Origin: a virus
IMG/VR virus record: IMGVR_UViG_3300021442_000439
Location: 1-38,039 of that record
Length of the DNA: 38,039 bases
Strand: one strand, 5' to 3'
Shown: one piece after another, positions 6,464 to 26,346 of the stretch
How the letters are laid out: each line of letters starts with the position of its first letter
How positions within the stretch are numbered: the stretch's first letter is position 1
Notes under the pieces: generated by a model
Database searches by the model: none
Seen by the model: the letters and a program-made list of their open reading frames with translations, nothing else
What the model was told of the DNA's origin: nothing
Made by a program: the position numbers and the translations under genes

Positions 6464-7153
6464 TTAGTTTTCATCCGTCAAAAAGAGGGGGGCTAATTTA
6501 CGGGCGGCTTCCAAGTCTTCAGGCTCGTCGATTTCAATGGACTCCCACCAATTCATATTAATAACGCCTACGTTGGGCCCTAATCGACGGCCACTTTCCC
6601 ACAACTTTCGTTTGGTTAAGTATACTCCGCCATTTTCTATAAATATAGAGGAATTCATGTGTTGGCGCAACGCCCTGTACGGGTAAAGCGGTATGAACTC
6701 CTTTTCTTTTGACCCACTGCGGTACCCCAGATACCGAGGCATTTCCGTTACTGTTATAACGCTGTCAAAGCTTTCTGATCGAAACTTCCGTACCACTTTA
6801 TTTATGTGCCCGGCTTTTAAAAACGGAGTCGTGCACTGCACCATGGCAATCGCGGCGAATTCTCCCGCCGGATCGTTTTCTTGGAGGAAATGTATTATGG
6901 AATCCTCGCTCGATATCTTATCCCCAGAAACTCTTTCTGGGCGTTCAACAGCGGAGCCTCCGGCCTCGGCGGCCTCTGAAAGAATTTCCTCAGAGTCGCT
7001 GTATACAAAAGTACTGTCTACGCAACTACTTACGCACTCTTTGGTGATCCTGAAGATTAAGCTCTCCCCCTCAACCCGTTGAAGATTCTTATTCGGAATC
7101 CCCTTGCTGCCGCCCCTCGCCAGTATCACCGCCGCTATTTTTCCCGTCTTCAT
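6464..7153 (-). CDS. CMP-sugar synthetase (acylneuraminate cytidylyltransferase-like)
   Basis: This 229-residue enzyme most likely couples CTP to a nonulosonic acid (sialic, legionaminic, pseudaminic) or a related acidic sugar, making the CMP-activated donor. The N-terminal nucleotide-binding signature ILARGGSKGIPNKNL (about 11-25) is diagnostic. Further family blocks are VQCTTPFL (about 104), ENGGVYL (about 175) and SIEIDEPEDLEAA (about 205). Length fits the NeuA/PseF/KdsB group, and the sugar cannot be told from sequence. It is the last gene of the second sugar block, directly before portal. The reading frame overlaps the preceding small gene by 65 bases, but the conserved N-terminus fixes the start at 7153. 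Confidence 0.85.
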   Translation of the reverse strand: MKTGKIAAVILARGGSKGIPNKNLQRVEGESLIFRITKECVSSCVDSTFVYSDSEEILSEAAEAGGSAVERPERVSGDKISSEDSIIHFLQENDPAGEFAAIAMVQCTTPFLKAGHINKVVRKFRSESFDSVITVTEMPRYLGYRSGSKEKEFIPLYPYRALRQHMNSSIFIENGGVYLTKRKLWESGRRLGPNVGVINMNWWESIEIDEPEDLEAARKLAPLFLTDEN

Positions 7154-7466
7154 ATTGCTTAATTATTCCTCCTATGTGCTTATGCATCTTCCGTAGCTGC
7201 GTTATTAAAGTGGATTCGTCTGGGGATTCCTTGGTAGGGTCGTACAAAGACATCATGTCCGCCGGAGAAAACCCTACCCCTTCTTTATTAAAGTCGGAGG
7301 GCTTGAACCCTTTAAACGGCATCTCTGCCTTACCCTCGGCACTTCCCGGCATAGAACTCAAGATACCGCTCAAGAAGTCTTGTGGGTTCATAATATTGGA
7401 GCATCCACTCTCTCCCGACCCGTCCTCGTTCTTCTCGTTCTCTGGGGTTGTCTCTGAAGTACTCAA
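7089..7466 (-). CDS. Uncharacterised Ser/Glu-rich protein overlapping both neighbours
   Basis: No family is recognised. The frame codes 125 residues from TTG 7466, which has GAGG seven bases upstream, or 100 residues from ATG 7391, which has a weak site. The TTG start would overlap the glycosyltransferase end by 137 bases, the ATG start by 62. The 3' end overlaps the CMP-sugar synthetase by 65 bases. The middle (FKGFKPSDFNKEGVGFSP, then a helical segment ending QLRKMHKHIGGIIKQYEDG) looks like real protein, and the 176-base space between the flanking genes has no other candidate. Both ends are Ser/Gly/Glu-rich and probably disordered. Confidence 0.5.
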   Translation of the reverse strand: MSTSETTPENEKNEDGSGESGCSNIMNPQDFLSGILSSMPGSAEGKAEMPFKGFKPSDFNKEGVGFSPADMMSLYDPTKESPDESTLITQLRKMHKHIGGIIKQYEDGKNSGGDTGEGRQQGDSE

Positions 7467-8331
7467 TTGTAGACCTCACTGTGTCAGGGGTTACTTTTAC
7501 AAAAGGATAACTTTCTATCGGAGCGCCGACTGAATCACAAAGCTCTCTCACCGTAATGTCATCGTAGTTAACTAAAACACATGCCCCAACAGCCGCCCCT
7601 TCTAAAGAGCTTAGGTGGGTGTAAGGGGAGAAGATTTCGTCCAATACAATGTGGGCTTGGATCTTCTCTGCCATGCTCTGCTCGAATGAAACCTTAGTTA
7701 AGAATCTGAAGTCCACCCCTTCTATCCCCTTGATCCTGTCCATGGTTGACTTGGGGCACTTGGCGTTTATCTTAGCGTTCGGTTCAAACTTATTTGAGTA
7801 AGTGAACACTACTCTACATTTGTTCGGCCTTACTTCGTACTGGGGGGTGTACAAGGGATGGTGTAGATCAATAATGTCAGGGAGCCTTCCCCAACGCTTG
7901 TCGCAATGCCTACCGTACCCATTGGTTATCATGGCGTGTCCTACGCGGGGTAGAAAAGGGAATCGTCCTGTGTCGAAAAATCTTTCCTTAACATTTCCTA
8001 TATGCGCGTGGTAGCAGAGGGCTTTTTTCGAGTGGACCAAAGAGTCCACGAAGTTCGGGTAAGCGTCGTCGTGGCAGTGTATTACATCAGCTTTCTTAAC
8101 CAGCCTGTTTAACTTCCCCATGTCCCTGCTCCCAAAGGTCACTCCGTATGGGTTCAAGAAGGCGCAATCTCCGCACTCATAGGGGTCGCGGTTAAAGGAG
8201 GATTTAGGGGGCGAAGCACGGCGTACATTTAAGTAGGCACCTGTGTGCTCAGTGTACCTCCCCCAGAACGTAGCAATACGTCCCGGCGTACCGCGTGTGT
8301 GGCTGTGGCCGTTAACGTGGAGTATAAACAT
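7330..8331 (-). CDS. Glycosyltransferase, GT-B fold (GT4-like)
   Basis: The product is 333 residues, starting at ATG 8331 (MFILHVNGHSHTRGTPGR), whose first A is the last base of the upstream methyltransferase stop (TAATG). Features are an N-terminal Rossmann-like strand, VIHCHDDAYPNF and CYHAHIGNV in the first half, and in the second half HIVLDEIFSPYTHLSSLEGAAVGACVLVNYDD, the place where GT4 enzymes bind the sugar-nucleotide phosphates (EX7E-like region). The C-terminal REREERGRVGREWMLQYYEP helix is also typical. It should transfer an activated sugar to an unknown acceptor. A longer in-frame start at 8427 is unlikely because it would run well into the methyltransferase. Confidence 0.75.
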   Translation of the reverse strand: MFILHVNGHSHTRGTPGRIATFWGRYTEHTGAYLNVRRASPPKSSFNRDPYECGDCAFLNPYGVTFGSRDMGKLNRLVKKADVIHCHDDAYPNFVDSLVHSKKALCYHAHIGNVKERFFDTGRFPFLPRVGHAMITNGYGRHCDKRWGRLPDIIDLHHPLYTPQYEVRPNKCRVVFTYSNKFEPNAKINAKCPKSTMDRIKGIEGVDFRFLTKVSFEQSMAEKIQAHIVLDEIFSPYTHLSSLEGAAVGACVLVNYDDITVRELCDSVGAPIESYPFVKVTPDTVRSTIEYFRDNPREREERGRVGREWMLQYYEPTRLLERYLEFYAGKCRG

Positions 8332-8906
8332 TACCAGTCGTTGAAAGCTAAGACGCGTAGGAAACCAGATTCGTGGTCGTAAAAGTCTACCTCTTTGAAG
8401 TCGGTAAACATCGACTTCCACTGCCATTTCGGTATGTCTACGGTCTGAAAATTTTCTTCACCGTCACACACAACAACTATACCGTACTTAGCTATCCGCC
8501 GTCCTTCCTCTATACCAGTAACTATGTCCTCTGGGTTCCATACGTGGTCGAGGACATTTATAAAGAAAACGAAATCATACAGGTTGTCGCTAATAAGTTT
8601 AAGGTCGCTTATGGAGTACGGGTACACCTCTTCAAACGACAGAAGCTCACCCGCCAACAGGAAGTTAACTATCTCTGTACCAGCCACGGTCCACCCGGAG
8701 AATTTGTAAAATTCCATAAGGTCACCGTGACCACACCCGACATCGAGCATGGTAATCTCCGAATAGTCAGACATTTGTTTCTCTAACAAAGGTCTTAGAT
8801 TACATGCGTGGCCTGTCGCTGGCGTCGGATGGATGCCGTAATCAGTATTCTGGTACAAGTCTTCAAGACAAGCCATGAACTCTTCGTAATTGATTATGTC
8901 TTCCAT
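8331..8906 (-). CDS. SAM-dependent methyltransferase, class I
   Basis: This 191-residue product has the SAM-binding motif I MLDVGCGHGDL (about 53-63), the acidic residue ending the second strand (VAGTEI), and a motif IV-like YDFVFFINVLDHVWNPEDI (about 112-130). These are the marks of the Methyltransf_11/23 group. It lies inside a sugar-gene block and is coupled to a glycosyltransferase, so O- or N-methylation of a sugar is the best guess, but the substrate cannot be read. Nothing suggests a DNA methyltransferase: there is no DPPY-type motif or target recognition domain. Confidence 0.8.
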   Translation of the reverse strand: MEDIINYEEFMACLEDLYQNTDYGIHPTPATGHACNLRPLLEKQMSDYSEITMLDVGCGHGDLMEFYKFSGWTVAGTEIVNFLLAGELLSFEEVYPYSISDLKLISDNLYDFVFFINVLDHVWNPEDIVTGIEEGRRIAKYGIVVVCDGEENFQTVDIPKWQWKSMFTDFKEVDFYDHESGFLRVLAFNDW

Positions 8907-8909
8907 AAA

Positions 8910-9173
8910 TCAATAACGAGCGCGTGTCCTTGGGTCGTTGATGTCGTAGAAGGACCAGTGCGGTGAATTGGAACACCCGCGCCCGCACTCAAGCTTTACC
9001 TGCGGAATACCGTTCAACGCTACATAAGTCTTCAGCATGTTAGCGTTTATGACCGGGGTGTGTTCGATAACGAAATCCAAACATTTAGCACAGCAAAACC
9101 TTTTCGACTTTAGCGGACGAAACTTAACGGGTTCATTGACTGTGGTTCTTGATTGTAAGGGCCTGTCACCCAT
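8910..9173 (-). CDS. Small Cys-rich protein, possible zinc site
   Basis: The 87-residue product has no recognised family. Five cysteines fall in two groups, CCAKC (about 37-41) and CGRGC (about 73-77). The spacing suits a structural zinc site, perhaps a ribbon. The rest is mixed alpha/beta with an Arg-rich tail. It overlaps the preceding gene by 8 bases and lies 3 bases before the methyltransferase, so it is expressed with the sugar block. A role in that pathway is inferred only from position. Confidence 0.6.
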   Translation of the reverse strand: MGDRPLQSRTTVNEPVKFRPLKSKRFCCAKCLDFVIEHTPVINANMLKTYVALNGIPQVKLECGRGCSNSPHWSFYDINDPRTRARY

Positions 9174-9981
9174 TGCTTTCCTCCAACTCCTTTAAATCAC
9201 TAAGACCGCGTTCTACTAACGTTGGGTGTTCTTTCTTCGGTGTTATTATCTCCTTTAGCCCCTCTAAAGTCATGTGGGGAATAGACTTCTGTTTGGACTT
9301 AGGGGAGTTGACGCAATGGATTTTTATGCCTTCCCATAGGCCGCTCTTTTCAACCTCTTCCAAAACCTCAATCATCTTCCCTAAACGATGCGTTACTAAC
9401 CGACCCTCTTCATCATATTCCCAACCTTTACGGGACCCGGCGAGGATTGGGTTCTTCTCTGAAGTGTGTTCCGGAGTCCTGCCGTCATAGTAGTACTCAT
9501 TTTTAGTTCTGTAACAGTCCAGACCAAAAACGTAAAACTCCTCTATCCCCATGTACCGCGCCATCTCAACTGCCCCAATCATAACGGTACCCCTCGAAAA
9601 GAATTCATAACCGTTATTGTATTCCTTCGCAGGTAGCGGCATCGAGTTCATGGTGTATATGTCAGGAACTTTGCAGCGGTCGTAAATGTAGTTACCGGAT
9701 TGGTGCATGGCTAATACGGACGTATGGTCCTTACACTTATCCGCGTACTCATAAACAATAGCTCTGTCACTTAGGACCCAAAAGTCAGCCGTGTCGGTCA
9801 GCTTTCGGATACCCTCGTTGACTGCTATCCGCACCCAATCCTCGGGTATGGTGGAATCGTCGTAATCCCGCAACGACGTTCCTGAGCAGCAGATAACTGC
9901 TTTCTTCCCTTTTAACTTACCTTTGAACTCTGTGATCCCTGTGAAAAAGTTTCTGCCTGACCTGTATTTTCCTTTTACCAT
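9166..9981 (-). CDS. MptE/DUF115-like Rossmann protein, copy 1
   Basis: The 271-residue product resembles the DUF115 (MAF_flag10) and 6-hydroxymethylpterin pyrophosphokinase MptE-like fold, which is also seen in flagellin-modifying Maf proteins and some sialyltransferase-like enzymes. Visible signature: a Gly/Ser loop after strand 1 (CCSGTSLRDYD, about 30-40), WVRIAVNEGIRKL, then WVLSDR, FSRGTVMIGAVEMARYMGIE, FYVFGLDCY, and VNSPKSKQ near the C-terminus. The same blocks recur in the next gene upstream, so the two are paralogues. It is probably a transferase or nucleotide-binding enzyme for the local sugar pathway. Starts at ATG 9981, overlapping the upstream paralogue by 7 bases. Confidence 0.65.
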   Translation of the reverse strand: MVKGKYRSGRNFFTGITEFKGKLKGKKAVICCSGTSLRDYDDSTIPEDWVRIAVNEGIRKLTDTADFWVLSDRAIVYEYADKCKDHTSVLAMHQSGNYIYDRCKVPDIYTMNSMPLPAKEYNNGYEFFSRGTVMIGAVEMARYMGIEEFYVFGLDCYRTKNEYYYDGRTPEHTSEKNPILAGSRKGWEYDEEGRLVTHRLGKMIEVLEEVEKSGLWEGIKIHCVNSPKSKQKSIPHMTLEGLKEIITPKKEHPTLVERGLSDLKELEESNG

Positions 9982-10724
9982 GAGAATCCTAATACCTCTT
10001 CTGGGTCTACTTTTTCAAAATTTAAAATGGTAGAGAGCGGGCTTAAGTTGTACACCCCACTCTCTGGCCAAGGTCCTTGATATAAGTCTTCTTCTTTAAG
10101 AGCGGCTTCCAACTGGCCCATATCGTGCCGCCAAGATTCATGCCGGTCTTGAACGAAAAGATCCGAACCGGAGCCCTTGGCTTTCTCTACCTTAGTCTTT
10201 CTCCTCTCAGGAGGCTTAACTGAACCGTCGTGATAATATTGTTTCTTCAAACAGTACCCATCGACACCGAGTAAAAAGATCCTTTTCGCACCCAACTTGT
10301 AAGCAAAGTTGATCCCGCCTGTAGCGACCGTTCTGCGTACATGAAGCCTCTGATCCGCTTTATCAAATTCGGGTTTACAACTAATATCGAATTGCCATAC
10401 ATACGGTTTGTATTGGCAGCTTCGACTATCTATAAACATTCTCCTCGCGTGTCTCTGACATACCATTTTACAAGGAGGCTTCCACACCATGTGGCTGTAC
10501 CTCTTCCAAATGTTCACGTCGGAGAACATGTGATAAGTAGGGATAAAGCCGTCTACTTTTACGGCGTCATTCAACCCAATCGTTACCTTGTCGTTCATCT
10601 TCTTCCAAGGGAAACCCGTTAAGCTAGTACCGGTCCCTATAACGAAGATGTCTTCTCCTACATGAGAATCTGCTATCTTTTGGATGCAGTTCCCCTCGTA
10701 GCTTTCATTTAGCGGCTTTCCCAT
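9975..10724 (-). CDS. MptE/DUF115-like Rossmann protein, copy 2
   Basis: This is a 249-residue paralogue of the gene that follows it. The order of blocks is the same: VIGTGTSLTGFPW (about 27-39), TIGLNDAVKVDGFIP, HMFSDVN, RRTVATGGINFAYKLGAKR (about 130-148), FLLGVDGYC, and VYNLSPLSTI near the end. The GTGTSL loop and the GVDGY strand end are the likely nucleotide and catalytic sites by analogy with MptE/Maf proteins. Several extra basic residues lie in the middle (PPERRKTKVEKAKGSGSD). It overlaps the HAD gene by 20 bases. Substrate unknown; it may act on an acceptor different from that of its neighbour. Confidence 0.65.
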   Translation of the reverse strand: MGKPLNESYEGNCIQKIADSHVGEDIFVIGTGTSLTGFPWKKMNDKVTIGLNDAVKVDGFIPTYHMFSDVNIWKRYSHMVWKPPCKMVCQRHARRMFIDSRSCQYKPYVWQFDISCKPEFDKADQRLHVRRTVATGGINFAYKLGAKRIFLLGVDGYCLKKQYYHDGSVKPPERRKTKVEKAKGSGSDLFVQDRHESWRHDMGQLEAALKEEDLYQGPWPESGVYNLSPLSTILNFEKVDPEEVLGFSW

Positions 10725-11040
10725 CGTTGACTATGTTATCTATCTCTTCTAAGGATCGACACCTGTCATCCACAAAGTATGTAAAATACGGCTTGTCCAT
10801 AAACAAAAAGTGGTACTCGATACCGTTTGCAAACAGCCAATTCTCAGTCAGCTTTCTGACCCCTTCCTTTCTGCCTGTATACAAAGTTACGGTCCAACCA
10901 GAATCAACAGCTTGATTTATCACCCGCTTAGCTTCCGGATTAACGTTCCTAGTCGCGTAGGTCCCGGCAAGGTCTTGGTGGTCCGTGTCGGCCTCTAACG
11001 TAAGGACGCCATCAATATCAAAGCATATAACCTTCGCCAT
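10705..11040 (-). CDS. HAD-superfamily phosphatase, minimal
   Basis: The product is 111 residues, with all four HAD motifs in short order: motif I CFDIDGVLT (about 6-14) with the nucleophile and acid/base aspartates, motif II in VTLYTGRKEG (about 51-60), a conserved Lys in FMDKPYFT (about 82-85), and motif IV FVDDR (about 89-93). It has no cap domain, like small phosphatases of capsule and LPS pathways. Likely reaction: removal of phosphate from a sugar phosphate. The start has a strong AGGAG site and overlaps the nucleotidyltransferase end by 23 bases. The pairing of a HAD phosphatase with a sugar nucleotidyltransferase is known in heptose and polysaccharide pathways. Confidence 0.8.
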   Translation of the reverse strand: MAKVICFDIDGVLTLEADTDHQDLAGTYATRNVNPEAKRVINQAVDSGWTVTLYTGRKEGVRKLTENWLFANGIEYHFLFMDKPYFTYFVDDRCRSLEEIDNIVNDGKAAK

Positions 11041-11806
11041 GCTCTTCTCCTAAGCTACGCTTAATCCTTCCGGACGCCACGCGGTAGTCACTTAAAGAAC
11101 CAACGTCGATGCACTCGCCGCTACGCATGATGCACCCTTTAAAAATAAATTTCGCAGTGGCCCACTCTAAGAAGGAACCTATGTTGTCGGGTAAGTCCCC
11201 AGCCGAGGACAGGCTGCTGCAGTAAGTAGTTAAAATTTTTGTAATCGTAGGAGGTAAATAACAGGGTCCTTTATATACTAGTTCCTCCGTTGAGACTTTG
11301 GGTTTTTCTTCGAAAGACGTAATCTTTCCAGATTCTCCAATACCCACTACGCCGCACTTGCGTCTTTTAGATTCACTGGTTTCCGTCCGCAAAGAAAGCC
11401 AACCGTTCTCAGGGTTTCTTTTTATTTCATAAAAGAATTTTTTAACGTCGAAAGTAAACACCGTGTCACCGGGAAACAAAACGACCGGAGAATAAATAGA
11501 TTTTAAACGCAGAACTCTTTCTACGTCGCCAATCGCGCCTATCCTATCCTCGTTCCGAGAGACGCCGTTATTGATTAGGGATATCTTCCTTTTGTCTTCC
11601 AGCCCCTCAAGCCAATGTTCGAAGTTATATTTAAAAAGTTGGTTGTGAAGTACGATTACCTCTTCAACGAAGTCTAAATTAATAAGAGGTCCGACGATCC
11701 AGTTTATTAACGGCTGTCCCGCTATATTAAAAAGGGCCTTTGAATTTTTCTTACCAAGCTCCCCTAAGCGAGAGCCGAAACCGGCACACAGTATTATAGC
11801 CTTCAT
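11018..11806 (-). CDS. Sugar-phosphate nucleotidyltransferase
   Basis: This 262-residue enzyme should make an NDP-sugar from NTP and a sugar 1-phosphate. The family signature is complete at the N-terminus: ILCAGFGSRLGELGKKNSKALFNIAGQPL (nucleotide loop with G-x-G-x-R, then the catalytic Lys). VVLFPGDTVF (about 109) carries the metal-binding Asp. KITSFEEKP (about 162-170) is a usual block of the RfbA/GlmU/HddC group. There is no left-handed beta-helix acyltransferase domain. Its ATG overlaps the stop of the preceding gene (TGATG), linking the sugar block to the head genes. The exact sugar and base are unknown. Confidence 0.85.
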   Translation of the reverse strand: MKAIILCAGFGSRLGELGKKNSKALFNIAGQPLINWIVGPLINLDFVEEVIVLHNQLFKYNFEHWLEGLEDKRKISLINNGVSRNEDRIGAIGDVERVLRLKSIYSPVVLFPGDTVFTFDVKKFFYEIKRNPENGWLSLRTETSESKRRKCGVVGIGESGKITSFEEKPKVSTEELVYKGPCYLPPTITKILTTYCSSLSSAGDLPDNIGSFLEWATAKFIFKGCIMRSGECIDVGSLSDYRVASGRIKRSLGEEHGEGYML

Positions 11807-14222: not shown

Positions 14223-14918
14223 CTAGCTGTCGTGCCAAGCAATGTGGACGTATTGATATACTATGTTATTCGCGACATCTACGGTACCACCAAGTTTGCT
14301 CCTGAATATGAACGCTAACACCCAAGAAGAACTACCCTTGGTCTCCCACTCAACAATCTTCTGTAGCTCAATTTTCCTCTCCGTGTAAAGGATCTGCCAT
14401 GTCCCTAAAGTCATATCATCCGTTGTAGGCGTTTTCGGGGTAACGGTAACATCCCCATACGGAGGAGTGGCGCTTTCGGGAATCCCTAACTCTATGGCCT
14501 GAATCCACACCTCTACAGACTCGAACCCTTGGTAGCTCTCTATGGCTTCTCCTAAAGGGAATCCGGTTCTTTCGTGGGGGCTGAGCTTGTGGGAAGATTG
14601 GGTCGCGGATATAGGCTCCGTAGGCGTCCCCTGCTCCCGCACCCGGTCATCGGCATGGGATATCAAAGCTTCGTCGTTAAACTGCGGCCAAAACTTTGTG
14701 TGGAGAATGTGAGCCGCCTGAGCACCGTACTCCGCCGCCCAAGGGCTGGAGCCTCCGCTGTCAGGGTCTATTGTTGAAGAGGTTGTTGTGGTTGTGGTTG
14801 TGGTTGTGGTTGTGGTTGTTGTGGTGGTTGTTAAGGTGATGAACACCCTTTGAAAAGAACCCGGAGTAAATTCTATCGGGTCTAGTTCTGTTATTTCTAT
14901 GCCTGAGTGGAACGACAC
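14223..14918 (-). CDS. Putative structural protein with a 17-threonine tract
   Basis: The 231-residue product starts at GTG 14918, preceded by GAGG six bases away. Residues 30-46 are 17 consecutive threonines encoded by alternating ACA/ACC codons (14781-14831), followed by SSTIDPDSGGSS. The N-terminal 29 residues and the C-terminal 180 (PWAAEYGAQAAHILHTKFW onward, ending in a beta-rich segment) look folded, so the tract is a linker or stalk. No family is recognised. Neighbours are structural. Poly-Thr is a typical acceptor for O-linked sugars, and the phage carries two sugar-gene blocks, but no glycosylation is shown by the sequence. Confidence 0.6.
   Translation of the reverse strand: MSFHSGIEITELDPIEFTPGSFQRVFITLTTTTTTTTTTTTTTTTTSSTIDPDSGGSSPWAAEYGAQAAHILHTKFWPQFNDEALISHADDRVREQGTPTEPISATQSSHKLSPHERTGFPLGEAIESYQGFESVEVWIQAIELGIPESATPPYGDVTVTPKTPTTDDMTLGTWQILYTERKIELQKIVEWETKGSSSWVLAFIFRSKLGGTVDVANNIVYQYVHIAWHDS
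14781..14831 (-). repeat. Poly-threonine coding microsatellite
   Basis: Seventeen in-frame ACA/ACC codons, mostly as the six-base unit ACAACC, encode the threonine run. The purity of the repeat suggests growth by slippage, and its length may vary between close relatives. Confidence 0.9.
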
Positions 14919-18384: not shown

Positions 18385-18915
18385 TTACTTGTATATGTAA
18401 TTACGCGCCCGAGATCTGGCCTTCTTACTATCAAGCCTGAAGCTTCTGTTAAAGGAGGTCCCAGAGTAACCGTGCACGTTGTGCGCGAGTATCTGGTTTT
18501 GTACCCCTCCCCGCGTACCCCTTTTCCATCCGACCTTTCCCTTTCTGGGACCACTCTTTACCGTAGTAGTATTCGAAACCATGTAATCATTCACCAACTT
18601 GGTGACGATTGCTTGCCTACCCGCGTCGTTTTTCTTGTTCTTCAGCAGCCCACGGAAGTCACCGTGCATGTTTTTAGCTTCTTTGCCCTGCATCGACAGA
18701 AGCTTAACCACGCGGCGTTCAAGGTTACGTTTGACGTTCGCCCTTGAGCCGGTCCCGCTTTTCTGAAACATTCCTTGCGCGGCCATGTTGTCCAGATGGC
18801 CCTTGATGCCCGACTTGTAACTCTTTAACGCTCCCTTGCCTCCAGCAGTCGTTTCATTGAGTTCACCTTTTCTTCCCTTTTTGCCGCCACCTAATTTTCC
18901 GCCTCCTCCACCCAT
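18385..18915 (-). CDS. Basic Gly/Lys-rich protein of the neck region, uncharacterised
   Basis: The 176-residue product starts MGGGGGKLGGGKKGRKGEL, a flexible Gly/Lys arm, and then a helical basic body (RANVKRNLERRVVKLLSMQG, AIVTKLVNDYMVSNTTTVKS) ending in SKKARSRARNYIYK. The start has a perfect AAGGAG site. In position it corresponds to the HK97 gp10-like neck gene of other siphoviruses, but I see no clear signature of that family. DNA contact is possible from charge. Function unknown. Confidence 0.55.
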   Translation of the reverse strand: MGGGGGKLGGGKKGRKGELNETTAGGKGALKSYKSGIKGHLDNMAAQGMFQKSGTGSRANVKRNLERRVVKLLSMQGKEAKNMHGDFRGLLKNKKNDAGRQAIVTKLVNDYMVSNTTTVKSGPRKGKVGWKRGTRGGVQNQILAHNVHGYSGTSFNRSFRLDSKKARSRARNYIYK

Positions 18916-18929
18916 ATCTAAACTCCTTT

Positions 18930-20375
18930 TTATTCTTTAATATGGTCGAAATCTAGCCGGTCCCATCGACTCTCGACATACTTAATAGGAATACCCAACC
19001 GGTCTTGCAAAACGGGCACCTCTTCTTCTTTACCACCATAAAGGATAAGGGATTGAGGGTTGATTTCCCCCATCATTTTATCCAACCCTTTTTCCCTAAG
19101 CTCCAACTCTTCTTCGGAACCTCGTGTCTGGAACTGGATGGAAACACAAGGGACCTTGTGGGGTATGCCTAAAAAGCAGTACTCAAAGGATGCTTCGTTC
19201 GACCACTGGATGTCAGGGATAACCTGTATACCCGCCTCCTGCATCGCGCAACCCACCCACCTACTGCGGTACACATTGAATAGTTGAACCGCCATTGGGA
19301 AGTCACCGTACAAAGAGAAATTAGGGGTGACCGCGTATTTAAGCCCGAAGGTTTTCAACCGGGCCAATGAAGGTACCGGGTTGGTCCACATACCCTCGAA
19401 GCGCCAGTCGTCTACATAAAATGCAAGGATAGTCCGGTCGAGGGGTAGGAGCGTTTGTTTAGACTTAGATTCCCTGCCGTAGAGAAGGAACCACCACCTG
19501 TCCGGATCTGATAAGTAATCCGTGTCAGAGTTGTACCCCATGAAGGTGGCGATATGGTTTTCCGTCTCTGGGATGGTCGGACACTGGTCTATGTCCATCT
19601 CGGGTATGCCGTACGGGAGGTCTGTATAAAATATCTTCTCCCATATATGCTCCAGAGCCTCTTCTTCTTTTGCTATGTCTTCCTCTGACTGAATCCTGCC
19701 GTCGAGTTCTTCAGGAAGAAGGTCTACGCTCGGAGTCTCGTCTTCGTATATACCAAGACCAAGGCTAGCGACCTGCTCGTCAGTCAGCATATCGTCGTAC
19801 CAATCTGGGAACTCGTCGGAGTAGATGATGGCAGTGTCAAACCTTGTCTCGTTATCCAGAGAAGATATTAACTCTTGCAGTTTTGCGTCGTCAGTCGTTG
19901 CTAACTCCGTCACCCCATCGTGAGTGGCGAGGATTATGTCCGCCTCTTTCTCCGTTATGTCGAGGACCAGAACGGGCAACTCTTCGTCGGGAAGAAGGTC
20001 TTTACGTAAGTGGCCGTCGACTAATATTAAAGACCCGTCCTCTTGCTCTCTGGCAAGTAGGGCATCGACGAATCCAACCTTGTCCATAATCCTTCTAAGG
20101 GCGGTAGTTTGTACGTCGTCATGCATCCGCCAGTTCTTAGGGTTACTGAGAAGCTCTTTTGCGGGAACTTGCCGAAGCTCTTTGATCCGGTTACGGAATG
20201 AAACCGAACCGTTCCGGTCGAAGTCTTTCTTTTTCTCTATGATCTCTTCTAAGCCATCAACCGCTGGGACAGCCCTTGCCTTCCCTTCTGAGGTTTCTTC
20301 AACTTCTTTGACTTCGACAACTTCTTCTTCTTCAACTTCTTCTTCTTCAACTTCGACAACTTCTTCTTCACTCAT
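18930..20375 (-). CDS. ParB-like domain fused to DUF4417
   Basis: The product is 481 residues from ATG 20375, which has AGGAG eight bases upstream and overlaps the methyltransferase stop (ATGA); an earlier TTG is unlikely. Regions: an acidic arm of Glu/Val repeats (1-27); a ParB/Srx-type domain (about 60-155) with VPAKELLSNPKNWRMHDD, then LILVDGHLRKDLL where ParB proteins have their nucleotide motif; a linker with acidic segments; and a DUF4417 domain (about 290-480) with VTPNFSLYGDFPMAVQLFN, VGCAMQEAGIQVIPDIQW and FCFLGIPHKVPC-like sequence. ParB modules often accompany phage methyltransferases. DUF4417 has no settled function. The combination and the coupling suggest one complex with the neighbour. 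Confidence 0.75.
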   Translation of the reverse strand: MSEEEVVEVEEEEVEEEEVVEVKEVEETSEGKARAVPAVDGLEEIIEKKKDFDRNGSVSFRNRIKELRQVPAKELLSNPKNWRMHDDVQTTALRRIMDKVGFVDALLAREQEDGSLILVDGHLRKDLLPDEELPVLVLDITEKEADIILATHDGVTELATTDDAKLQELISSLDNETRFDTAIIYSDEFPDWYDDMLTDEQVASLGLGIYEDETPSVDLLPEELDGRIQSEEDIAKEEEALEHIWEKIFYTDLPYGIPEMDIDQCPTIPETENHIATFMGYNSDTDYLSDPDRWWFLLYGRESKSKQTLLPLDRTILAFYVDDWRFEGMWTNPVPSLARLKTFGLKYAVTPNFSLYGDFPMAVQLFNVYRSRWVGCAMQEAGIQVIPDIQWSNEASFEYCFLGIPHKVPCVSIQFQTRGSEEELELREKGLDKMMGEINPQSLILYGGKEEEVPVLQDRLGIPIKYVESRWDRLDFDHIKE

Positions 20376-21226
20376 ACGGCTTTCTCCTGATACGCCTTGT
20401 CGCTGGTAAATTGCTGCCAACGTCTAATTATAAAGTCACACTTCTTGGGGCTGTTCTCCATGGCGTAACAACTGCCACCAAGCTGCTCACAAGCCATAAG
20501 GGCTGAACCAAATCCCGCAAACGGGTTGTATAAAATATCGCCCGGTTCAATCACGTGGCTGAGGACTCTCCCTATCAATTCAACTGGGGTCATTTCGTTG
20601 AAAAGTTCGGAGGCGTTGGGCATGGAGTAGTTATAAACTGTAGCTGCGGAGCCTCCGGTTAACCACTTCCTGAGACCTCCGAACTTCCACCCGTACCATA
20701 TAGACTCATGGTTACGGCGGAAATATTTGTCCTCATCTACCGATCCGTCCGATACCCAAATTATTTCAGAACTCAGCCTTAAAGGCTGTACCCACATCTC
20801 AGCTAACTCATCTAAGGCTGTCGGCTTGTACCTGATAAAAACGCTGGCCCCTTTCTTCAGATACTCGGCTGCAATCCGCACACCGGTTGTCCCTATCTCC
20901 ACGCTTTCAAGGTCCCCTGCTGGCGGTACGGTCCATAAAATATCTGGGGCCACTTCGTCCAGAAGCTTTACCAAGTATTCAACTTCCGTACAGTCCCCAC
21001 AGACCAGTTTATGCCGCCCTAACCGCCACGTATCTCCGCGAGAAACAAGAAGGTCGTCCTCGTGTATATCTGGAAGCTGGTCCTGCTCCACCCCGATAGA
21101 AGATACCTCCGTAGAGATTTCAAAATCCTCTATATCAGACAAAAGCCCGCCAACGATGGAGCTAAGTTCTTCCTCGGTAAACCCTATATCGTCGGGATAC
21201 TCTATCTCGTCTTTTTCATCAGCCAT
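20372..21226 (-). CDS. Beta-class DNA methyltransferase fold with degenerate catalytic motif
   Basis: The product is 284 residues. After an acidic N-terminus comes the phage methyltransferase layout: GDTWRLGRHKLVCGDCTEVE, then the motif IV position DILWTVPPAGD (about 95-105), IIWVSDGS, a Trp/Gly-rich loop, and motif I DILYNPFAGFGSALMACEQLG (about 235-255) with GGSCYAMENSP after it. Active enzymes have D/N/S-P-P-Y/F at motif IV; here Val replaces the acid and Ala the aromatic. The DNA reads clearly as GTA CCG CCA GCA. Base methylation is therefore unlikely, while SAM or DNA binding may remain. Coupled to the ParB-DUF4417 gene downstream. Confidence 0.75.
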   Translation of the reverse strand: MADEKDEIEYPDDIGFTEEELSSIVGGLLSDIEDFEISTEVSSIGVEQDQLPDIHEDDLLVSRGDTWRLGRHKLVCGDCTEVEYLVKLLDEVAPDILWTVPPAGDLESVEIGTTGVRIAAEYLKKGASVFIRYKPTALDELAEMWVQPLRLSSEIIWVSDGSVDEDKYFRRNHESIWYGWKFGGLRKWLTGGSAATVYNYSMPNASELFNEMTPVELIGRVLSHVIEPGDILYNPFAGFGSALMACEQLGGSCYAMENSPKKCDFIIRRWQQFTSDKAYQEKAV

Positions 21227-21681
21227 TAAGAATCTATGTCGTCAAATGTGGTGTAGTAATCAAATTTAAATATATTGACGTTAAGAACTTTACTAAGAGG
21301 TACTAAGGAATCGGGTATTTTTTCAAAAACATCACAGTACTTACGCTTCACTCCCGTAGCTTTGTAAACTGCGATAACTTCGTCACCTGAGAAATAGTAA
21401 TACTTTTTACCCTTCTCTTCTACATTATAACATTTCGCGTCAAACTTAATCTCGTAGTCGACGCCTAAATCTGAGTCAGCCGTAGCGTTAGAATCAAAGT
21501 AATCGAGGTATTGCGGGGTAGGTAGCCCTATCTGGGAGTCCTTTACCAAGCTGGACTTCTTGGCGTATCTGGATAGCTTCAAGCCGTCATAGGGCCCGCC
21601 GATTAAAAGGGCGAACTCTGCGTCTTGTATCCTTAATTTGTCGTCACCCTTAGCCATAGCGGTAATTACCCCTATGGACAT
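21226..21681 (-). CDS. Uncharacterised protein with a GGPYDG motif
   Basis: The 151-residue product has LLIGGPYDGLKLSRYAKK near the N-terminus (about 26-43), a motif seen at the front of several small phage proteins of unknown role. The rest is mixed, ending in an acidic FDDIDS tail. ATG 21681 has a perfect AAGGAGG site; an ATG nine codons on (MAKGDDK) is less likely. The stop shares a base with the methyltransferase start (TAATG), so the two are co-translated. No function can be assigned. Confidence 0.6.
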   Translation of the reverse strand: MSIGVITAMAKGDDKLRIQDAEFALLIGGPYDGLKLSRYAKKSSLVKDSQIGLPTPQYLDYFDSNATADSDLGVDYEIKFDAKCYNVEEKGKKYYYFSGDEVIAVYKATGVKRKYCDVFEKIPDSLVPLSKVLNVNIFKFDYYTTFDDIDS

Positions 21682-21715: not shown

Positions 21716-22039
21716 TTAAGTTAACTCTTCTTCCGTAAACTCATAAGGGACAACGCCGTCAGCGAACTGGATAAAGCAGGGCGTGTACTCCCCTACGTAG
21801 GCCCCTATGACGTTGAAATCGAAGTACTCTAAAGCTTCTTCGTGGGACATACCCTGCCTCATAAGTATAGAAATACATTTATCGGTATCGTAAGCGGCGA
21901 TTGAAGGCTGGTTACACCGATTAACTATCCCTATGAAAGCTTCTTCAAACCCGTCCGCGTACATAACGTTGTTCTCTTCTAACTCCGTTACGGAGTCCAC
22001 AAGAAGTAGTTGTCCCGCTGTCATCGTGTCACGATTCAT
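21716..22039 (-). CDS. Conserved phage protein of unknown function
   Basis: The product is 107 residues. The middle block AAYDTDKCISILMRQGMSHE then EALEYFDFNVIGAYVGEYTP (about 48-87) is one I recognise from many unrelated phages as a small conserved family without assigned role; it is alpha then beta. The C-terminal FADGVVPYEFTEEELT is acidic. It overlaps the end of the upstream glycosyltransferase-like gene by 11 bases. Confidence 0.65.
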   Translation of the reverse strand: MNRDTMTAGQLLLVDSVTELEENNVMYADGFEEAFIGIVNRCNQPSIAAYDTDKCISILMRQGMSHEEALEYFDFNVIGAYVGEYTPCFIQFADGVVPYEFTEEELT

Positions 22040-22892
22040 TTATCTTTCCCCAATCAGTTGGAATGAATATGGGCTTACCGCCCTTCTTACCAAGATACTT
22101 TTTATATAACTTCTCATCTTCTTTTACCCAGACGATAAAAGGACAAGAGTAATCTGCGCTAGCGTCGATAACCTGCATATCCCAGCGGTTAATGAAGTGG
22201 TTTAGAAATCTCATTTGTAGAACACCAGCGCCCCTGTACCGGCCTTTGACCACGTCGTCTCCTTTGCGTAGGGCCGGTTGTCCCCTGTACTTGATTCGAA
22301 GAGAGCCTACCTTTCTAAACAAGCGCATATTAAAAACGCCTGTAGACACAGCCGCATGGGGTTCGGTGTTCGCGATAAATTCATATTCGGTCTTCCCGTC
22401 CACCCAAAGAGAGGCGCAGAAGACAGCCTTCTTTCTATTCAGTTTTGAGGTGAAGTATCTCTCGATCACTTCCGTATCAAACCCCTTAAAGCCGGGAATG
22501 AAGTCGTCTTCGGTGACAAATGCGTAAGCTGTGTCTTCTGGGCATAGCTTTTGAAGGCCGTGCTCCCACGAACCATAGGACAGGGTTGCGTCGTTAACCC
22601 TCTTCACTATCTTCCACTCCCTGTCTGCGTCTTCTTCATTTTTACGCCGAACAAGTTCTTCAGCTTTTTTATGCACTTTCCTATCCCTGACGGACCTGCT
22701 CCTTAAGTTGCATACAAAAATAACCGTGCTGATAGACTCAGAGAATTCGCTAACCGTTTTGATCTGCTTTTTAAGGTCAATGAGAGAGTCGTTTAAATCC
22801 TCCGACTCCCACGGCTCGGGTAATTCATTGTCCCATAAAGGTCGGCGTCTCGGGCCGTAGTAGCAAGCGCATATATAAGCAACTTTAGGCAA
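22029..22892 (-). CDS. GT-A-like glycosyltransferase, probable
   Basis: The 287-residue product opens with a strand VAYICACYYGPRRR and has a GT-A-like acidic motif in YAFVTEDDFIPGF (about 123-135), where these enzymes hold the metal and sugar nucleotide. Other blocks are STVIFVCNLRSRS, AVFCASLWVDG and DYSCPFIVWVKED. It reads as GT2-like but divergent. The start is TTG 22892, supported by AAGGA eight bases upstream and one base after the aminotransferase stop. It sits at the end of the first sugar block, so a sugar transfer role fits. Confidence 0.55.
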   Translation of the reverse strand: MPKVAYICACYYGPRRRPLWDNELPEPWESEDLNDSLIDLKKQIKTVSEFSESISTVIFVCNLRSRSVRDRKVHKKAEELVRRKNEEDADREWKIVKRVNDATLSYGSWEHGLQKLCPEDTAYAFVTEDDFIPGFKGFDTEVIERYFTSKLNRKKAVFCASLWVDGKTEYEFIANTEPHAAVSTGVFNMRLFRKVGSLRIKYRGQPALRKGDDVVKGRYRGAGVLQMRFLNHFINRWDMQVIDASADYSCPFIVWVKEDEKLYKKYLGKKGGKPIFIPTDWGKINES

Positions 22893-22893
22893 C

Positions 22894-24045
22894 TCACCAT
22901 CCTTCTTTTATGCAGCCGACAATATATTCCCTGTCCTCTTCGGTTACCCACCAACCAACTGGAATACATATCATATCTTTAACCACACGCTCTAACGATG
23001 GGAGTTGGGTTTTAAATTCTCTTACGCAAAGGTGCTTATCATTTCTTTCGTGCACCCGGCTTACCGCTATGCCGTGTTCCGCCATCTTCCGCATAAAGTC
23101 GTCACGCCTGTCTACGAACATCGTGTATTGCCAATACGCAGCTTGGCGATCAAGCTCAGACTGCAACAACGTTACGCCGGAAGTACCTGCTAAAGCTTCG
23201 TTATAAAAAGCAGCGTTGTCGATATGCTTTTTCAAAACCGGCTCTATCTCTTTTAAGTTCTCAAGGCCCACAGCAGCGCATACGTCGTTCATGTGGAACT
23301 TGAATCCCCACTCTGGAATATCGTCTTCACACCTGAAATCTTTTGTGTTCGTATCCCGGTCTATGCCGTACCAACGTAACAGCTTCCCTCGCTTGAATAG
23401 CTCTTGGTGGGGAAGAACCAACGCCCCTCCGTCCACGGATGTTAAATGCTTTATGGCTTGGAAACTGTAACAGCAAATGTTCCCCATCTCCGGTAACTGG
23501 GACTTCTTGAACGTAGTTCCAAAAGCGTGGGCGCAGTCCTCAATTACAGAGGGCTTAAACCCATGCAGCTTCTCTGCTTCTAATTGGATCTCCCTCACCC
23601 TATCAAGGTCGCAAGGGTAACCGCCCCAGTGGACGAGAAGGATAACCTTGGTTGAGGGTGTTATCTTCCTCGCTAAGTCGTCTAAGTCCATCCCAAGAGT
23701 TTCCGGGTCGACGTCTACCCATTTGATTCTAAGACCGTTGGCAAGGACGGGCCAGTTGGTAGCCGTACAAGTCAAAGGGGTACAGAGAACTTCGTCGCCG
23801 TACCTTAAGCCCGGCCAGTTCGATCTGTCGTCGTTCTTAGCTTTTAATAAGTGGATACCCAAGTGCAAAGCAGAGGTGCAGCTATTAAGGCTCAACACGT
23901 AGTCGCTGTTTAGATAGCCTCTTAAGCCCGACTCAAACTTCTCAACTATTTCTCCCTGACCTATGTACCCACTCTTCAAAACTTCAGCGGCTGCTTCAGG
24001 GGCCTTGTCAGACATAAAAACTTTAAACAGCGGTATGTTCTTCAT
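22894..24045 (-). CDS. DegT/DnrJ/EryC1/StrS sugar aminotransferase
   Basis: This 383-residue PLP enzyme adds an amino group to a keto-sugar nucleotide, using glutamate as donor. The family layout is complete: GYIGQGEIVEKFE (26-38), SLNSCTSALHLGIH (52-65), VIEDCAHAFGT (167-177) with the Asp that holds the PLP nitrogen, and FQAIKHLTSVDGGAL (195-209) with the PLP-binding Lys199. Full length for the family (PseC, perosamine synthetase, WecE). The exact sugar cannot be read. The ATG shares a base with the upstream glycosyltransferase stop (TAATG). Confidence 0.9.
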   Translation of the reverse strand: MKNIPLFKVFMSDKAPEAAAEVLKSGYIGQGEIVEKFESGLRGYLNSDYVLSLNSCTSALHLGIHLLKAKNDDRSNWPGLRYGDEVLCTPLTCTATNWPVLANGLRIKWVDVDPETLGMDLDDLARKITPSTKVILLVHWGGYPCDLDRVREIQLEAEKLHGFKPSVIEDCAHAFGTTFKKSQLPEMGNICCYSFQAIKHLTSVDGGALVLPHQELFKRGKLLRWYGIDRDTNTKDFRCEDDIPEWGFKFHMNDVCAAVGLENLKEIEPVLKKHIDNAAFYNEALAGTSGVTLLQSELDRQAAYWQYTMFVDRRDDFMRKMAEHGIAVSRVHERNDKHLCVREFKTQLPSLERVVKDMICIPVGWWVTEEDREYIVGCIKEGW

Positions 24046-25280
24046 TAGAAGTCCTCGTAAAAAATTGGTTCTAACTGCTTCTTGAAAATGAAGTCTCTAT
24101 TGTGCGTCGTGTTTTGAGAGACCGTTGCGTTGTGGATAGTGAGGTCCCTCTTATACCCGTCTATGATTTCCCGCGCCACGAACTCGTAGTAGTGGGGGTG
24201 GTCTACTGGGTTGTACTTTGTAAATTCAAAATTCATAACCGTGTCTAAGCTGAAGTCGAGCATAGGGGGGAAGTCCCTGTTCAGAACTACGAACTTGCCC
24301 GTTATGTTTGCTTCGGCTTGGACCAAGGAGCAGGACTCCATGTGGCTTGGGAAGATAAACATGTTTGACATGATAGTCAGGTCCTTAAGAACCTTGTGCG
24401 GGACGGAGTAACGCCAATCCTCTGAATACTCAGAAGTGAACACAAAGTCCTTTTCGGGTTCGAGGCCGCAAGTGTCTACGGCAAAAGACTTTAGGTCTTC
24501 TATCATTTTACGGTCTTCGTCTTTTGTGCAGTGGCAATTAACCAATACAAGTTTCACGTTCAAACCGTAGCTCTTCCAAATACCAAATATCTTCAAAACC
24601 CTGTCTACGCCTTTACTCTCCCAGCGAGGCGTAGAAAAAGAAAAGGTCTGTAGAAGCGAGTGGTTAAGAAGGTCTTTCGCCTCTATGAATTCACAGGTTT
24701 CCGGGCTGAACTCGAAGAAGTCCCTGACGTCTTTTGCGTTGTTGACTATTCTCACATTAGAAACTTTTGTCGCGTACATCTTAGCGACTTCTTTCTTCTG
24801 GGCTTCATTCAGGAATACTATCTTGGACCGCTCTGGGCACTTGTACCGAAGAGTTGTCGGGAAACACATTTCGTCAGGCTTTGGACGCGCAGAGGGGCAC
24901 GAATGAATCCAGTGCAGCCACTTCTTTTCAGGGTACTCTCCAATACATTTCCATATCGCCCCGGTGCAACAAAGGTGGGTGTCCAGAAATATAAGGTCGT
25001 GCGTTATTACGACGTCATAAGGTTCAACCGCTTCCTTGTACCCCATTCCATTTGAGTCGCCACTGAACATAGCTTCTGACTGTACGTAGAAATCAGGAGA
25101 GGCCATGTCCTTCTTATCTAATCTACGATAATGCTGCCACGTTAAGACGTTACGCGTCTTAATGTTTTCCTTGGCCGCCCACTCTAAACGAGCCTCGTTA
25201 AAAGTTGAGTTGACCAATATGTCGTAGTCGTAACCATGCGCATCTAGCATCCTAGCTTGGTCTTTCACTACCCCAGCCAC
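24045..25280 (-). CDS. Glycosyltransferase, GT4-like; true start uncertain
   Basis: The frame codes 411 residues from GTG 25280, but the natural N-terminus of a GT-B enzyme lies upstream in the same frame: RIGILTSLNDYSSSF precedes VAGVVKDQARMLDAHGY. The frame is open back to 25400, yet contains no ATG, GTG or TTG there, only ATT 25376 and ATA 25355 (plus ATC codons). GTG 25280 has no ribosome site and would lose the first strand. The C-terminal half has FIFPSHMESCSLVQAEANITG (about 325-345), a clear GT4 donor-site block. An adjoining epimerase and aminotransferase support a sugar-transfer role. Confidence 0.75.
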   Translation of the reverse strand: MAGVVKDQARMLDAHGYDYDILVNSTFNEARLEWAAKENIKTRNVLTWQHYRRLDKKDMASPDFYVQSEAMFSGDSNGMGYKEAVEPYDVVITHDLIFLDTHLCCTGAIWKCIGEYPEKKWLHWIHSCPSARPKPDEMCFPTTLRYKCPERSKIVFLNEAQKKEVAKMYATKVSNVRIVNNAKDVRDFFEFSPETCEFIEAKDLLNHSLLQTFSFSTPRWESKGVDRVLKIFGIWKSYGLNVKLVLVNCHCTKDEDRKMIEDLKSFAVDTCGLEPEKDFVFTSEYSEDWRYSVPHKVLKDLTIMSNMFIFPSHMESCSLVQAEANITGKFVVLNRDFPPMLDFSLDTVMNFEFTKYNPVDHPHYYEFVAREIIDGYKRDLTIHNATVSQNTTHNRDFIFKKQLEPIFYEDF

Positions 25281-25335
25281 AGAAAAAGAAGAAGAGTAGT
25301 CGTTTAGAGAAGTGAGGATACCGATACGCGGTTTA

Positions 25336-26346
25336 TCAGGTTTGGACTTTAATATGTTTAGATGAGTCTGGGTAATGGTTGAAGTGCTGAAAAGCGTCGG
25401 CTACTTGGGTACTGAGACTTGATTGAGGTTCATACCCAAGAACATCATAAGCGTGTCTGCTGGAACTGACGAAGTTATGAACTCCCCCATCCGCCCTCGG
25501 ACACTCGCCTAACACTCTCGGCTCCCTGCTTCTGGATACGTCTTGAAAAATATAAGCTAAATCAATAACGGAGCATGAATACCCTCCGATATTGAAAATG
25601 TCGTTTTCTTTGCTGGTAGAGGTTATGGCTTTAACATTAGCAGACGTTACGTCGTCAATATGTACAAAGTCTCGCAACTGTAAGCCGTCACCATATACCT
25701 CTGGGCCTTTGCCTTCCTTGAACGACCTAACCCAGTTACGCATTACGCCGCTCTCAAAGGAGTCGTATGATTGACCTGCGCCAAGGATAACGGAGTAACG
25801 CATCGCATACACCGGTATGTCGTAAAGACGAGCTAAGTCAAACATCGCCTTTTCTTGAATTAGCTTTGAAGACCCATAGATAGATATGGGCGTCACAGGT
25901 GAAGCTTCGGTCAGGTTAACTCCCGGCGCGTACACCGCTTGAGAGGAGGCTAAAACAATGCGGTCGATCCTCCCCTCTGCTCCGTAGTGGCGTATCGCCT
26001 CAAATAAGTTGAACGTCGGATAGACGTTACTAAGTCCGAACTCGTCGACACCCCTCGCGTAACCCTGTACGGCGGGAAGCCAAACTATGGTGTGATTGTT
26101 CTCAGCAAGGTGACCGAACGCTTTGTTCCATCCCGCTTCACCTTTTGAGGACCTTACGTCCGCCTGTGCAAAGGTGTAGTCGCCCTTTGAAGGCCACGGC
26201 GTAACAGGTTCCACCTCTAAGTTATCTATAAGGGTGACCCTGTGGGGTCGAACTAAGTGCGGATGAGTAGACGTTTTTATCAGCGCTTTTGCAAGGGCGT
26301 GGCCGACGAATCCAGAGCCCCCATAAATCGAAACGTTGTAACTCAT
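25336..26346 (-). CDS. NAD-dependent epimerase/dehydratase
   Basis: This 336-residue extended SDR enzyme has the NAD loop YGGSGFVG (8-15), an acidic end to strand 2 (LIDNLE), LASSQAVYAP (132-141) with the catalytic Ser, and the Tyr/Lys pair YGSSK (157-161). Later RDFVHIDDVTSAN and FNIGG are typical of nucleotide-sugar epimerases and 4,6-dehydratases. It should alter a UDP-, GDP- or dTDP-sugar, feeding the aminotransferase and glycosyltransferases downstream. ATG 26346 overlaps the upstream stop (ATGA). Confidence 0.88.
   Translation of the reverse strand: MSYNVSIYGGSGFVGHALAKALIKTSTHPHLVRPHRVTLIDNLEVEPVTPWPSKGDYTFAQADVRSSKGEAGWNKAFGHLAENNHTIVWLPAVQGYARGVDEFGLSNVYPTFNLFEAIRHYGAEGRIDRIVLASSQAVYAPGVNLTEASPVTPISIYGSSKLIQEKAMFDLARLYDIPVYAMRYSVILGAGQSYDSFESGVMRNWVRSFKEGKGPEVYGDGLQLRDFVHIDDVTSANVKAITSTSKENDIFNIGGYSCSVIDLAYIFQDVSRSREPRVLGECPRADGGVHNFVSSSRHAYDVLGYEPQSSLSTQVADAFQHFNHYPDSSKHIKVQT

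Follow-up and report, generated by a model that had tools for sequence, protein, structure and literature searches.

A retained methyltransferase-like gene with a degenerate active site, a probable pseudo-methyltransferase partner of a viral ParB-DUF4417 protein

Introduction

Two types of fusion proteins containing a ParB domain are recognised in phages, i.e., ParB fused to an N6_N4 DNA methyltransferase (ParB-MTase) and ParB fused to DUF4417; binding of CTP, ATP or GTP is known for some ParB-like folds (PMC12704722). Both types are common in phages. The ParB-MTase proteins make up PHROG 498, a family of ParB plus DNA methyltransferase. Examples are the ParB-Tls locus methyltransferases of Paracoccus phages (PMC6536676) and Bacillus cereus Bce_0392, which is cited in PMC5512222. 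In Paracoccus phages the ParB-MTase genes are localized upstream of terminase genes, and it has been proposed that modification is directed to viral DNA during packaging (PMC6536676).

Methyltransferase folds without activity are known elsewhere: METTL14, in which the motif reads EPPL, has no activity of its own in the METTL3-METTL14 complex (PMC5023411). No description of a pseudo-methyltransferase in a phage was found in the literature searched. A natural version devoid of the chemistry, located beside a ParB-DUF4417 gene, would allow a non-catalytic role to be tested apart from methylation. The present analysis concerns such a candidate. It is encoded in a single virus record (IMG/VR IMGVR_UViG_3300021442_000439), whose 38,039 bases constitute the window.

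Gene layout

The features considered are the following.

18930..20375, minus strand: ParB-DUF4417 gene; ParB-like NTPase domain (DGHLR of the GHxR-type motif kept) fused to DUF4417
20372..21226, minus strand: MTase-like gene (284 aa) with the fold of a beta-class amino-MTase and a degenerate active site; lacks a ParB domain
20507..20527, minus strand: motif I, NPFAGFG in place of DPFGGSG (residues 234-240; F at the position of M1.HpyAVI S198)
20585..20602, minus strand: SAM carboxylate loop, FNEMTP in place of HPTMKP (residues 209-214; contains the position of M1.HpyAVI H168)
20918..20929, minus strand: motif IV, VPPA in place of DPPY (residues 100-103, from the alignments with relatives)
21226..21681, minus strand: 151-aa gene, no family assigned, directly upstream of the MTase-like gene

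No stop interrupts the 284 codons of the MTase-like reading frame. The frame overlaps both of its neighbours: its start is covered by the stop of the 151-aa gene (as TAATG), and its stop by the start of the ParB-DUF4417 gene at 20375 (as ATGA). The latter overlap bears out the tight coupling to ParB-DUF4417 that had been proposed from the sequence alone. For the 151-aa protein, searches of Pfam, PHROGs, NCBIfam and PADLOC were all negative. The next gene after ParB-DUF4417 (18385-18915, minus strand) encodes a protein beginning with MGGGGGKLGGG; two other ParB-DUF4417 loci (L178 and L181) are followed by genes whose products begin with MGGR, a possible conserved neighbour.

Family and predicted fold

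The MTase-like protein matches Pfam N6_N4_Mtase (PF01555) at 2.1e-9, i.e., above the curated cut-off, and PHROG 498 «DNA methyltransferase» at 4.5e-44. The latter match covers profile positions 150-429 of 633, which correspond to the MTase half. The AlphaFold2 model, computed from an alignment with 49 relatives, has a mean pLDDT of 86.3 and a pTM of 0.80. Its top Foldseek match is M1.HpyAVI (5hek/5hfj, E about 1e-13), followed by M.RsrI, CcrM and others. Since the relatives aligned for the model are active enzymes, to whose fold it leans, it shows the compatibility of the sequence with an MTase fold and nothing beyond.

By profile and predicted fold, the protein is thus a beta-class amino-methyltransferase, and its nearest kin is the MTase half of the phage ParB-MTase fusions. 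The homology with this half extends over its whole length, including the linker that comes after ParB. The predicted fold and the motif order are those of M1.HpyAVI and of other beta-class amino-MTases (5hek, 5hfj, 1nw6, 6pbd); the difference lies in the catalytic residues and in the contacts with the carboxylate and amino groups of SAM, which the window protein has lost. Compared with the fusions, it lacks ParB in the same chain as well as the DPPY, HPTxKP and GSG residues.

Motif IV and distribution of the losses

Besides the window protein, the alignment comprised 88 relatives, drawn from annotated phages and IMG/VR. Motif IV is of the DPPY type in all 88 (with a single NPPY, a single DSPY and a single DPPW), and the residues aligned with it in the window protein, 100-103, read VPPA, as first noted from the letters; VPPA occurs in this protein only. 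DPPY or SPPY is also kept in 11 further proteins, i.e., 9 sampled lower in the ranking, down to about 21% identity, and both AcaML1 methylases. As the motif is preserved even in such distant relatives, its loss goes beyond mere divergence in the family. No second (D/N/S)PP(Y/F/W) is present anywhere in the 284 residues.

The losses are not limited to motif IV. Near-invariant columns, with a conservation of 90% or more among the relatives, number 47; of these, 25 are kept and 22 changed in the window protein, and the worst of the 87 relatives compared loses 8 and keeps 39. The lost residues include D100, Y103, the N-D after motif IV, K159, H209, P210, T211, K213, D234, S239 and T242, and the loop that follows motif IV is shorter. 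The region up to the glycine-aspartate motif (residues 64-80) is nearly intact, with 8 of 9 near-invariant residues kept. The active-site set shows no significant enrichment of losses (Fisher p 0.56). The loss is general: the whole domain has drifted. The sequence-only reading had described the protein as probably catalytically dead, and the excess of losses over every relative supports this well. It had also regarded the rest of the layout as kept, which is not supported, in view of the shortened loop and the missing ParB domain (see below).

If the unusual motif IV were due to an error of sequencing or assembly affecting two codons, the basis of the claim would be removed. It must be noticed that only one IMG/VR virus record is concerned, with no second one for comparison. 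However, 22 independent losses are involved, they are spread across the gene, the frame is open and the GC content by codon position is normal; an error at two codons is thus ruled out and the claim stands.

According to a second explanation, the protein would still be catalytically active in spite of its altered motif IV, by itself or together with an MTase subunit of the host. The fold is kept according to the model and to Foldseek, and an active partner could supply what a site lacks, given that dimers are the working form of beta-class enzymes such as M1.HpyAVI (PMC5173035). Nevertheless, the acid, the aromatic residue, H, K and S are all gone, and no other amino-MTase of the DPPY type is encoded in the window. 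None of the three signatures of active enzymes is found in full, i.e., (i) a motif I FxGxG with the preceding acid and the GSG serine, (ii) a motif IV (D/N/S)PP(Y/F/W) and (iii) an HPTxKP loop, read here as FNEMTP. Residual activity is therefore considered highly improbable.

SAM pocket

In the NPFAGFG motif, F236, G238 and G240 are kept, while D234 has become N and S239 has become F. The sequence-only reading, according to which the SAM-binding motif is preserved, is thus correct for the glycines and F236 and incorrect for the acid, the serine and the other contacts on the methionine side.

The alignment with M1.HpyAVI gives a more precise picture. D29, H168 and S198 of this enzyme correspond to V100, F209 and F239 of the window protein, and all three are lost. 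On the contrary F195, G197 and E216 correspond to F236, G238 and E257, and all three are kept. D78 probably stands at the place of D8, since it precedes motif IV by 22 residues (D8 by 21 in M1.HpyAVI). In other words, the equivalents of D8, F195 and E216, on the adenosine side, are kept in three cases out of three, and among those of D29, H168, S198 and T200 only T200 is kept, as S241. The adenosine end of the pocket is thus kept and the methionine end lost.

In M1.HpyAVI, SAM affinity is no longer measurable in the D29A mutant and is reduced in H168A and S198A (PMC5173035). By analogy with these mutants of a distant homologue, the window protein is probably without useful affinity for SAM. 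This bears on the proposal that the domain senses SAM, i.e., binds it and reports its level to ParB-DUF4417. The residues kept at the adenosine end (F236, G238, G240, E257 and D78) would agree with such a role. However, the motif IV acid is gone and the D29, H168 and S198 equivalents are all lost, one of these changes alone, D29A, abolishing SAM binding in M1.HpyAVI; a SAM sensor, as had been suggested from the sequence, is thus very unlikely.

The same asymmetry would be expected if the pocket held another ligand of the adenosine type, e.g., ATP, ADP or SAH. The adenosine set kept in full, with a methionine set reduced to T200 (as S241), agrees with this. However, the comparison concerns just seven positions, and those that are kept also support the fold, so that such a ligand is considered improbable.

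Missing ParB domain and the ParB-DUF4417 neighbour

The N-terminus is extended in frame by 90 aa or more in 81 of 87 relatives, and this extension is a ParB domain in those that were aligned. The window protein carries no ParB. It starts at the linker by which this domain is followed in the fusions, and the open frame reaches only 5 codons 5' of its ATG. With no N-terminal ParB in the same chain, it is not itself a ParB-MTase fusion.

The downstream gene is a regular member of the ParB-DUF4417 phage proteins (PHROG 940; PMC12704722), with a ParB fold, its conserved arginine motif and DUF4417. It matches Pfam PF14386 at 2.4e-42, PHROG 940 «nuclease» and ParB families, and its predicted structure has Foldseek matches to Noc/ParB structures. 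In addition, residues about 240-475 give weak but repeated Foldseek matches to TIM-barrel enzymes (triosephosphate isomerase, IGP synthase, aldolases, tRNA-guanine transglycosylase and AP endonuclease), and the predicted structure thus points to a TIM-barrel-like DUF4417.

Among the ParB-DUF4417 members found, that of the window is the only one immediately preceded by an MTase-like gene. In the 80 DUF4417 loci scanned, no comparable gene adjoins DUF4417. Of 50 of the virus records to which these loci belong, four have an MTase match elsewhere, limited to the C-terminal half or to the motif I region. The pairing is thus so far unique to the window record.

Retention or decay

The MTase-like gene could be a decaying remnant, i.e., a ParB-MTase made redundant by ParB-DUF4417 and drifting without function, in which no stop has appeared yet. 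Several observations agree with this: the ParB half is missing, the losses at conserved positions are scattered with no clear pattern, and in Streptococcus phages ParB-DUF4417 occupies the pre-terminase place that ParB-MTase holds in other phages (no terminase gene was identified in the 38,039 bases of the window). Relatives in the same state were not encountered either. No close relative came out of IMG/VR or GTDB genomes, whether the query was the full protein, the C-terminal part or the NPFAGFG pattern, and the profile search gave relatives of the active type only, none with the same losses, among the matches listed. One sister virus (L253) was identified by its portal protein, at 43% identity; neither an MTase-like nor a ParB-DUF4417 gene was found in its record, which has 33.7 kb and may be a fragment.

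Neutral decay was simulated from eight active relatives by random substitution until an equal share of near-invariant residues was lost, considering substitutions only. For 22 losses, the frame remained free of stops in 12 of 4000 runs, and in 7 of 4000 in a second set (0.2-0.3%). If 8 of the 22 losses are attributed to older divergence, i.e., for decay to 14 losses, this was the case in 99 of 4000 runs (2.5%). Leaving indels aside, stop-free neutral decay is thus rare, and the start and stop overlaps are also intact at both ends of the gene. Decay without function is consequently regarded as unlikely, though to be taken seriously. The GC content by codon position is similar to that of the neighbouring genes. 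The intact frame and this GC profile favour a constrained protein, known from one record, and the simulations support the retention of the gene that had been claimed from the sequence.

Proposed function

The best explanation, to which we give about an even chance, is a retained pseudo-methyltransferase that would be a probable non-catalytic partner of ParB-DUF4417. According to this explanation, the ancestor of the gene would be a phage ParB-MTase fusion, which would have lost its ParB half, the acid and the aromatic residue of motif IV and most SAM contacts at the methionine end, the fold being kept. The product would no longer methylate DNA and would probably have no useful affinity for SAM. 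Co-translated with ParB-DUF4417, the non-catalytic protein would have been retained and would most likely serve the latter as a structural or targeting subunit, and the ParB NTPase/clamp domain would now be supplied in trans by ParB-DUF4417.

The logic can be likened to that of METTL14 (EPPL) supporting METTL3, and this precedent makes the role of non-catalytic partner possible. Both proteins have a degenerate motif IV in an MTase fold, both are inactive (by prediction for the window protein) and both are kept. They differ in that no active MTase partner is encoded in the window record, where one from the host would be conceivable, and in that the window protein is outside the MT-A70 family; membership in the METTL14 family is not claimed. 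What the computations establish is the homology, the losses, the open frame, the overlaps and the absence of a ParB domain. The partnership with ParB-DUF4417, like any binding to DNA, is suggested by gene order, and by that of one operon, since the pairing is absent beside the 80 DUF4417 loci and in the 50 records.

A more specific version, which we consider doubtful, is a two-gene phage module derived from a split ParB-MTase fusion, in which a pseudoenzyme keeping the adenosine end of its pocket would regulate or target the ParB-DUF4417 NTPase in trans.

Other features of the record

Sugar/glycan genes are dispersed in this 38-kb virus (6464-11806 and 22029-26346, minus strand). They comprise a cytidylyltransferase, a nucleotidyl transferase, a NAD-dependent epimerase, a DegT aminotransferase, glycosyltransferase-like genes and two MptE-like genes, and several of them are common to the window record and the sister virus (L253/L254). 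A second, unrelated SAM-dependent methyltransferase fold (Methyltransf_23) is localized within the sugar gene region, at 8331-8906 (minus strand). The product of the reading frame 14223-14918 (minus strand) contains about 18 consecutive threonines near its N-terminus, a possible site of repeat slippage.
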